The position numbers and the translations under genes were made by a program. Shown here piece by piece: positions 5,779 through 9,222 of a DNA stretch of 34,597 nucleotides. How positions within the stretch are numbered: position 1 is the stretch's first letter; every line of letters begins with the position of its first letter. The stretch lies in NCBI GenBank assembly GCA_021812985.1, contig JAKAMG010000031.1, positions 1-34,597 of the forward strand, given 5' to 3'. This stretch comes from Bacteroidota bacterium (GTDB lineage: Bacteria; Bacteroidota; Ignavibacteria; Kryptoniales; JAKASW01). The notes beneath the pieces are model-generated. The model did not search any database. It saw only the letters and a list, made by a program, of their open reading frames with translations, and was not told the origin of the DNA.

Positions 5779-6912
5779 CTAGGCTTTAGCGGCCTGTTTC
5801 TCCACGGCCGCGATTTTCGCCACCATCCAACCTACTACCGCCAATCCGATGAGAAACAAAACTAAGAACGATATCATAGGACTCCACTGAATGTCCACGG
5901 GGAGTTTGGATACGTCTTCGTACCTGAATATCTCCACGTTCTGGACCCACTGCCTGCTGATTGCGTTGAGCGTCAGGACAATGAACTGTAGAATGGATGC
6001 GGTGACCACGGCGCCCCCCCTTACCCCTTTCCGCTGGCCGAAGAGAACGAGGAGAACGAAACCGGGCGAGATGGCAGTAAGCGCGAACAGCAGGAGCCCA
6101 AGCGGCTGACCCGTGACCGCATTGAGTGTCGATTTCTCCAATGCGCCGAATATGTACCAGCTTCCCATCGCCGCAAACACAATCAATCCGACAGCATAGA
6201 GGCGAAAAGCGAATTTGCCGGCCCATTTTCTATATTCATCTGAGGTGGCGTTCTTTTTGAAGAACGAGGCATCGAAGGCTATGAAGACGGCCGTCGTCGT
6301 GATTGCCAGGCCAAACATCATCAGCCATCTCGGAATGAGCGTGGGATCTCGGAGGTCGAGTGCCGTGCCTGTCACTGCTCCGGCGATGTTCGTCTTGTTG
6401 AATATGTTTATCCAGTTAGGCACGTTTACCATCAGGCTGAAATTGTTCGTGAAGAGGAAGCCGATGAAGATGAACGCGATTGAGCTCACCCAAGCCGAAG
6501 CGAGGGCGAACTTCGTACTCTTGTTCTTCTTGACACTCAGCGAGTAGACATAGACACCGTAGTACGCAAAGATCAGTATGGCTATCACGCTGAACCAGGC
6601 CTGGGCCATAAGTATCCCCGCAGGATAGTAGAACTGATAATATCCTACCTGCGTAAAGAGGAGGGGCACTATACCGAGATTTACGCCCAACGCGACGATT
6701 ATTGGCATCGTGCGAGAGAGACGGTGTGCCAGCTCCAGTTGGTGGTTCTTTCCGAAGGTCGCGAAGATCGCGACAAGGAGCATCCCTGCGTACCAGATGT
6801 TCATCGGGATCATGTGCAGTATGAAGCCGAGTACCTTGAAGAAGGTGATGAACCAGAAGGGTGCGGGGTTGCCGAGCGGAGACACCGGGCCGATTAAATC
6901 TTGGGGATTCAT
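5779..6912 (-). CDS. Membrane subunit II of a cytochrome bd-like oxidase complex
   Basis: A 377-residue integral membrane protein with about nine hydrophobic segments. It is encoded directly behind a CydA-like cytochrome c fusion, with a 4-base ATGA overlap (6909-6912). By position and architecture it should be the partner subunit of that enzyme, equivalent to CydB or a divergent CydA-like second subunit. Histidines in or near membrane segments (H33 in ILHMIPMNIW, H63) could bind heme, but I cannot assign ligands. No CxxCH motif and no signal peptide were found. The short C-terminus is alanine/lysine-rich. The family assignment rests mainly on its neighbour; a direct profile comparison was not possible. 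Confidence 0.65.
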   Translation of the reverse strand: MNPQDLIGPVSPLGNPAPFWFITFFKVLGFILHMIPMNIWYAGMLLVAIFATFGKNHQLELAHRLSRTMPIIVALGVNLGIVPLLFTQVGYYQFYYPAGILMAQAWFSVIAILIFAYYGVYVYSLSVKKNKSTKFALASAWVSSIAFIFIGFLFTNNFSLMVNVPNWINIFNKTNIAGAVTGTALDLRDPTLIPRWLMMFGLAITTTAVFIAFDASFFKKNATSDEYRKWAGKFAFRLYAVGLIVFAAMGSWYIFGALEKSTLNAVTGQPLGLLLFALTAISPGFVLLVLFGQRKGVRGGAVVTASILQFIVLTLNAISRQWVQNVEIFRYEDVSKLPVDIQWSPMISFLVLFLIGLAVVGWMVAKIAAVEKQAAKA

Positions 6913-8342
6913 TTGCTTACCTCCTCTCCTTCAATTTGGTTCGCGAACGTATGGTCGCTTTTGGCGTTAACGCTGCTGAATCTCATCCCGCTGGGACTCG
7001 GAGGAGAGAGTGAAACCAGATATTCGGTGAGGAGCGTGGCCTCGGCCTGCGTTCCGCACCACGGAGGCATGAAGAAGTGCGCCTTATCCAGATGCGTGAC
7101 TACTGTGCCGATCATGTCCTTGCTCCAACCCCTTGTGAGCTCCACTATGCCTGAGAATCCGTTTACCGAGTGGCAGTCGTTGCAGTGATACTGGAACAGA
7201 ACTCGTCCAAGGTTGATCTGGTCCTGAGGCGGAAGCTGAAGGAGCTTTGAGTCCGCTATGTTGCCGTCGGCTCCCATAACCTGCGGGTAGTGGGCCTTGA
7301 CGAAAGCCTTTGTCCACGTTCCTCCGTTGAGATATCCGGTTGACTGCATCTTAGGGATGTCCGACACGACAACGTTGTTACCGGTCACGTAGTTGTAAAT
7401 GATATAAGGCTTGCGCACTCCTTCGCGGATAAATTCCCCGGTACCGGTAGCGGCAATACCGAGAAGGAAATAAAGTATCGCGAAGCCAGGATTGATCCAG
7501 CCGGGGTTCCGGTAGGGACCGAAATAGAGCATGAAGAAGACGACAGCCGAGGAAGCGAACACGAGTATCGAGAGGATGTTCAGGGCGCTTGCTCCCGCGA
7601 GAGCGGCTCTAGCGCTGTCCGGAAGGTTAATGAACCACCAAGCCCCGCCCACTGTCACGAGCGCGGCGCCCGCCATTGCCCATCTTGACGTTCGGTTTTC
7701 AACAAGTGCGCGTAGCTGATGGTCGCCCTTGAGCTTGAAAGCCGCGTGCAGATATATGTACAGGGAAGCAAGCAGGAGCGAAGCTCCCGTTCTTGCTATG
7801 ATCTGAGGGAACGTCTGCGGATTGAAGAACGCGACCCACATCCCCTTGTCGGGGGTCCAATTGCCGATGTCAAGCTGGAAGGCCGTTATCCCTGTGATGA
7901 GGACGAGGCTGATGTATGCCGCCACAGCGTATATCCAACCGATGAGCCTGTGGGTCTTTGGGTCCAACCGTCCCCAGTAATAGTGAAAGATAAATGCCGA
8001 GATGACTTCGAGAACGAAGAACACATATTCCATTGCCCAGCCGAATACGAAGATATGAATCAGCGACTCTGTTGCGAGCGGGGAGGAGAGTGCAATTGTC
8101 CACCATATGCCGACGCCGGTTATTGCCCCGAAGACGACAGTCAGGAGTATGAAGAAAAGTGTGTGGGATCTTAGATAATCGAGAAGAGATTTGTTATTGA
8201 CTTTGTAAGCGAAAGAAGTCTCCCCCGCCAGCACAATGCCGCCGCCCACAGCGTAGAGCGACACAAACACGTGCACGGTAGCTATCATCGCGATAAGCAT
8301 CGGCGAGGTGAGGTTGGGAACATACCACCATGGATAATGCAT
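6909..8342 (-). CDS. CydA-like oxidase subunit I with fused C-terminal cytochrome c
   Basis: A 477-residue membrane protein. Residues 1 to about 330 resemble CydA of the cytochrome bd superfamily: H24 in the first helix (cf. b595 ligand H19 of E. coli), E105 and E112 in one helix (cf. E99/E107), and GEFIREGVRKPY at 302-313 where CydA has a Glu before GRQPW. The long quinol-binding Q-loop of CydA is not evident. The tail (about 375-445) is a cytochrome c domain with CNDCH at 387-391 and a likely distal Met at 425 (FFMPPW). This suggests electron delivery through heme c rather than quinol, as proposed for non-quinol bd families. Shine-Dalgarno GGAGGG lies just upstream (8348-8353). It overlaps the next gene by ATGA. 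Confidence 0.8.
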   Translation of the reverse strand: MHYPWWYVPNLTSPMLIAMIATVHVFVSLYAVGGGIVLAGETSFAYKVNNKSLLDYLRSHTLFFILLTVVFGAITGVGIWWTIALSSPLATESLIHIFVFGWAMEYVFFVLEVISAFIFHYYWGRLDPKTHRLIGWIYAVAAYISLVLITGITAFQLDIGNWTPDKGMWVAFFNPQTFPQIIARTGASLLLASLYIYLHAAFKLKGDHQLRALVENRTSRWAMAGAALVTVGGAWWFINLPDSARAALAGASALNILSILVFASSAVVFFMLYFGPYRNPGWINPGFAILYFLLGIAATGTGEFIREGVRKPYIIYNYVTGNNVVVSDIPKMQSTGYLNGGTWTKAFVKAHYPQVMGADGNIADSKLLQLPPQDQINLGRVLFQYHCNDCHSVNGFSGIVELTRGWSKDMIGTVVTHLDKAHFFMPPWCGTQAEATLLTEYLVSLSPPSPSGMRFSSVNAKSDHTFANQIEGEEVSK

Positions 8343-8592: not shown

Positions 8593-9222
8593 TCAGTGTC
8601 TTTGAAAGATCGCGAAATAGGGTCCGAGCGGAAGCGGTGCAGTGAAGTCGCCCGATTTCAGCGACCGAAGCTCCGCCTGGATCTCGTCGGGATACCTGTG
8701 GATGTCGACATTGCCGACATGACCGTTCGTGACTCCATGAATTTCTGAAGCGCATATCACCGCGAGCGAGTCAAAGGCCGCGCCCGCTTTCAGCAGTCGG
8801 TATGCTGTGTCCGCCTTTGTAAATGTCGCGAATGTCATCTGGGAGAGATCCATCATCACTGGCTGGGTCGAGACCACCCTGGCCGTTTGGATGATCCTCA
8901 TCTGGATCGGTTTGTCGTTGGCGAGAGCCGGTGAATATTTCCACTGCATGATTCTCTCAATGGCGGCAGCGTCCCACTCCCTGTCGCCTGTCGCCTTGGT
9001 GAGCGTGACATGCCTGACAGATCCATCAACACCGATAAGGAGTTCCATTCGGATGTAGAAGTCCTGGGAGGCAAAGCCCTGCGGTGGAGGCGGAAGAGGG
9101 GCCTTCTCGATGAGAGTTGGCGGAACGACGCTTGACTCCAGCCCATCGAAGGAAGCGCATCCCGCAACAAGGACTGCCAAGCCTACAATCGCCAATGACA
9201 AAATACGTTTTGGCCTCAGCAT
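8593..9222 (-). CDS. Lipoprotein with TonB C-terminal-like and parvulin-like domains
   Basis: A 209-residue predicted lipoprotein. The N-terminus has basic residues, a hydrophobic core and the lipobox LVAGC with C22 as the lipidated cysteine. A proline-rich spacer (APLPPPPQG) leads to a TonB C-terminal-like domain at about 55-117, with the family's GxVxxVxLxKxTGDxxWDxAAIxxxxxWKYxPA pattern. Residues about 130-208 resemble the PpiC/parvulin rotamase fold: a helix with LLKAGAAFDSLA, a GxVGNVD turn, then LKSGDFTAPLPLGPYFAIF, which matches the usual GevS-Pv-t-GyhI ending. The rotamase half looks short and may be inactive. Probably anchored in the envelope facing the periplasm. The partner is unknown, as no TonB receptor or ExbB/D is nearby. 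Confidence 0.7.
   Translation of the reverse strand: MLRPKRILSLAIVGLAVLVAGCASFDGLESSVVPPTLIEKAPLPPPPQGFASQDFYIRMELLIGVDGSVRHVTLTKATGDREWDAAAIERIMQWKYSPALANDKPIQMRIIQTARVVSTQPVMMDLSQMTFATFTKADTAYRLLKAGAAFDSLAVICASEIHGVTNGHVGNVDIHRYPDEIQAELRSLKSGDFTAPLPLGPYFAIFQRH

Follow-up and report, generated by a model that had tools for sequence, protein, structure and literature searches.

Two non-quinol families of the cytochrome bd superfamily, OR-C and OR-N, were reportedly defined by Murali, Gennis and Hemp in 2021; OR-C is said to be named for a C-terminal cytochrome c domain, and OR-N to be defined by a CydA without a fused c heme. As far as the literature surveyed says, non-quinol bd-type oxidases are widespread and biochemically uncharacterised. 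Subsequent publications repeat this classification and also that OR-N probably uses cytochrome c (PMC10839748, PMC13189123), and fusions of CydA to multiple c-type cytochromes in more than 50 deltaproteobacteria were noted in 2015 and set aside by the authors (PMC5322542).

The gene pair described here lies in a window of 34,597 nucleotides (the whole stretch of DNA that was analysed) from a Bacteroidota bacterium. The first-pass annotation had read it as a bd-like oxidase with a fused cytochrome c and no apparent quinol loop; both open reading frames were recovered at the coordinates it gave:

6909..8342, minus strand: subunit I, 477 aa, CydA-like with a cytochrome c domain
5779..6912, minus strand: subunit II, 377 aa, best called a CydA' paralogue

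From the residues and structural models set out below, we consider it likely that the pair encodes a two-subunit, cytochrome-c-driven bd-type oxygen reductase, the fused heme c of which is fed by a quinol:cytochrome c oxidoreductase.

The two genes overlap by 4 bp (ATGA), the start codon of subunit II lying on the stop codon of subunit I, with a tRNA-Ser gene just upstream of the pair, and no other locus of the 3.5 Mb source genome matches PF01654. The neighbours here and in congeners (ribosomal protein, rpoA, engB, tRNA, nusA and infB) are housekeeping genes and say nothing about function. Also conserved beside the pair in the genus is a TonB C-terminal-like protein, a TonB-like lipoprotein with a weak PpiC/rotamase match (8593-9222 of the window, minus strand).

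Subunit I is composed of eight transmembrane helices (residues about 13-309) followed by a cytochrome c domain (about 326-450), and is matched by Pfam Cyt_bd_oxida_I over residues 16-231 (E 6.5e-10) and by the CBB3 cytochrome c family over residues 376-442 (E 4e-5, just under the curated cut-off). The heme c site comprises CNDCH at 387-391 (C387, C390, H391) and Met425, all invariant in 57 aligned rows of relatives, as are, among others, H24, E105, E112, H131, E303, R306, E307, R310 and K311. On alignment with E. coli CydA and 30 canonical CydA proteins of the same phylum, H24, E105, E112, H131, E307 and R310 correspond to H19, E99, E107, H126, E445 and R448, and an independent alignment to the sequence of the Geobacillus bd structure gave identical correspondences. 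The terminal cytochrome c and the CydA-type ligands first proposed from the letters alone (H24, E105/E112 and E307) are therefore upheld. Every one of the 19 relatives and 11 sister proteins keeps all six E. coli residues, along with P450; H19, E445 and E99/E107 are likewise present in 30/30 canonical CydA.

The quinol site presents the opposite picture. Canonical CydA proteins of the comparison set carry H186, M393 and K252 (30/30) and E257 (29/30), whereas the b558 ligands H186/M393 and the quinol residues K252/E257 are absent from all 19 relatives and all 11 sister proteins checked, as is the Q-loop. An intact Q-loop or quinol site, which would have spoken against the original reading, was sought in this alignment and was absent. 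An invariant arginine, R184, adjoins the H186 position, and W441 and Q449 (E. coli numbering) are replaced by an invariant Glu and an invariant Lys, respectively. R184, E303 and R306 are invariant charged residues around the lost b558/quinol site. H60 and H199, near the cytoplasmic ends of the helices, are likewise invariant, although of these two only H60 persists in the sister groups.

The two subunits were modelled singly. A joint model templated on L060, a locus in which subunits I and II are joined in one 860-residue protein, was ruled out, as the mixed alignment built on that fusion misplaced the subunit II rows. The subunit I model (mean pLDDT 81.9) comprises eight helices and then the cytochrome c domain, with low confidence in the first 11 residues, the Met425 loop (pLDDT under 50) and the C-terminus. 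Its residues 7-324 match CydA with a best Z of 30.2 (rmsd 2.9, 315 aligned), ten CydA chains falling at Z 26.5-30.2 and the next group at Z 19. By analogy with the canonical N-out topology, the helix count and the Lys/Arg content of the loops on the two membrane sides (2 against 9, read by the positive-inside rule) would place the fused cytochrome c on the periplasmic side.

Searches of subunit II against Pfam and NCBIfam returned no match, and a PF02322 search of the source genome for CydB was likewise negative. The model of this nine-helix protein (pLDDT 93.7) nevertheless finds its best fold match in each bd entry in the CydA chain (Z 25-28; 5doq_A, Z 27.9), and its Foldseek TM-score is 0.70 to Geobacillus CydA as against 0.48-0.60 to the CydB chains among the matches listed. 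Because its predicted fold is closer to CydA than to CydB chains, subunit II is best called CydA', not CydB. The catalytic glutamates are missing from it, and H33, R195 and D214 are invariant or nearly so. The almost invariant H33 lies in helix 1 with a methionine four residues on (M37), and the CydA' subunit may itself bind a heme.

A scan of 84,980 species genomes yielded 65 loci in about nine phyla: Bacteroidota/Kryptoniota, Acidobacteriota, Chloroflexota, Planctomycetota, Bipolaricaulota, Armatimonadota, Zixibacteria, Fischerbacteria and Sumerlaeota. Within the genus of the source, 12/13 genomes match, some as fragments only. Subunit II directly follows subunit I at 52 of the 55 loci whose downstream sequence is long enough to show it; the three without a detectable subunit II downstream (L049, L052 and L055) all belong to one planctomycete clade. 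In the tree, this group and its sister groups split from canonical CydA with support of 100/100, and the separating branch is long. One sister protein (L118:2381-3943) has two tandem cytochrome c domains where the others have one, so the number of c hemes varies among sister proteins. A very divergent CydA-c relative (L122:2248-3666, branch 2.6) returns no Pfam bd match and keeps the active-site residues.

Genomic context bears on the electron donor. In a sister subfamily of four genera, all from one family of the same phylum (L114-L117), the genes are arranged A' - Rieske - cytochrome b - A in one apparent operon (L114:1244-5462 at the first of these loci), on one strand and with gene ends close or touching; L115 and L116 are truncated on the A' side. 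The operon contains no separate cytochrome c or cytochrome c1 gene, an arrangement which suggests that electrons enter from a bc-type complex via the fused heme c, and the four genes may constitute a one-operon quinol:O2 chain without copper. This linkage belongs to the sister subfamily and not to the window locus. The source genome does have paired Rieske and cytochrome b genes, next to which no c-type cytochrome is encoded; its cytochrome b is 42% identical to that of the sister operon, and the genome also has the start of an alternative complex III. Cytochrome b was found in 20/22 genomes with the pair as against 21/39 of the others compared, a difference for which kinship alone could account, and this phylogenetic profile was rejected as evidence as being too confounded by relatedness. 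A Qrc/alternative-complex-like module, with pentaheme, monoheme and tetraheme cytochromes c and an NrfD protein adjoining, was observed at about 138-147 kb of G000:C6 (L073).

Elsewhere, the genes directly upstream of the pair encode pyruvate:ferredoxin oxidoreductase, an oxygen-sensitive enzyme, and a dihydroorotate dehydrogenase-like protein (L010, L012, L058, L032, L040 and probably L061). These loci come from two phyla, in Acidobacteria and Thermogutta-type planctomycetes, and the association may hint at a function in O2 protection. HlyD/RND-type efflux genes lie downstream of the pair in planctomycetes.

The first-pass annotation further supposed that the pair would link a cytochrome c pool to oxygen without a heme-copper oxidase, which is not a claim that can be made here. 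A COX1 search of the source genome matched an NO-reductase-like protein only, and a COX2 search returned no match. However, contig C49 of this genome (G000) ends 2 bases after residue 972 (of about 1036) of an actB gene, reached via a homologue of a gene found ahead of the alternative complex III-caa3 cluster in a congener. Since C49 ends in actB, and in congeners the caa3 genes come after the alternative complex III cluster, the missing heme-copper oxidase is probably an assembly gap with the caa3 genes inside it, and the idea that the genome has no O2 reductase besides the pair was rejected.

In the route that we propose, the Rieske/cytochrome b pair or alternative complex III would supply electrons to the fused periplasmic heme c, either directly or via a soluble cytochrome c. 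As heme b558 and the quinol site have been lost, these electrons would pass from heme c straight to the retained two-heme site of subunit I (ligands H24 and E307), where the sequence is compatible with heme d and heme b alike. The fused heme c would stand in for heme b558 and the quinol site together, O2 would be reduced at the two-heme site with cytoplasmic protons arriving via the retained E105/E112/H131 region, and the CydA' subunit would take the place of CydB as structural partner, in a role that could be microaerobic respiration or O2 scavenging. A bolder version, which we hold only tentatively and think unlikely, has the fused heme c replacing cytochrome c1, such that Rieske/cytochrome b and the bd-c pair form an obligate copper-free quinol:O2 supercomplex; on the same doubtful reading, this would be encoded by one operon of four genes in the sister lineage but by two separate loci here.

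Should the enzyme still be a quinol oxidase, quinol would bind elsewhere, near heme b595 or in CydA', and heme c would be an extra relay or an exit. Archaeal CydAA' is said, in the work of Murali in 2021, to be active with quinol, which counts for this alternative. So do the non-Q-loop menaquinone site near b595 of mycobacterial bd and the binding of quinone by E. coli CydB (PMC8951039). However, K252, E257, both b558 ligands and the Q-loop have been lost together while the c heme is fixed, and the sister operon has a quinol-oxidising Rieske/cytochrome b of its own, making continued quinol oxidation quite improbable. Instead of O2, the acceptor might be a different small ligand (NO or peroxide, for example), or the enzyme might serve mainly in O2 detoxification as opposed to energy conservation. 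The pyruvate:ferredoxin oxidoreductase neighbours would fit O2 protection, and congeners possess caa3 oxidases, therefore the pair need not be the main respiratory oxidase; yet the residues of the CydA O2 site are invariant and the source genome already has a dedicated NO-reductase-like protein, and we judge this explanation to be improbable. That the protein is a non-catalytic electron-transfer or sensor derivative of a bd oxidase is hardly credible, for although its partner is without catalytic glutamates and neither b558 ligand survives, the two heme ligands of the active site and the residues of the proton path are fully kept over nine phyla. We thus favour the cytochrome-c-driven oxygen reductase, and the pair and the sister operon would together offer a concrete, copper-free path for electrons from a bc-type complex to O2. 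If so, a cytochrome c chain could have a copper-free end and, via the bc-type complex, more charge would presumably be moved per electron than by a quinol bd oxidase.

The pair resembles several known systems to differing degrees. With canonical CydAB (qOR) of E. coli and Geobacillus it has in common the subunit I fold and H19/E99/E107/H126/E445/R448; it differs in being without the b558 ligands, Q-loop, K252/E257 and CydB, in its added cytochrome c, in the change of GRQPW to (V)RKPY, and in the new invariant residues E303 and R306. The deltaproteobacterial CydA-cytochrome c fusions (PMC5322542) also have no cydB, but carry several c hemes where the pair has one. The OR-N CydAA' of Nitrospira and Nitrospina (PMC10839748, PMC12342949, PMC3578206) is like the pair in its missing quinol residues, proposed oxidation of cytochrome c and association of CydA with a CydA-like partner. 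Unlike the pair, it has no fused c heme described, the Nitrospina protein has 14 predicted helices, and its genes lie beside those for nitrite oxidoreductase or alternative complex III. The c heme of the pair is invariant, which sets it apart from a family distinguished by a CydA without one. The expectation that the pair would fit the non-quinol bd families is borne out by the kept diheme site, the lost quinol site, the putatively periplasmic cytochrome c and the sister Rieske/cytochrome b operon. By its residue and domain features, as distinct from clade placement, it appears to match the OR-C type, with which it reportedly shares the CydA core, diheme ligands, lack of a quinol site and C-terminal cytochrome c, no difference being known to us. 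What this study adds, no description having been found in the literature searched, is the identification of subunit II as CydA', a residue signature and the sister Rieske/cytochrome b operon; enzymes of the same general kind have already been described, and the pair is one more.
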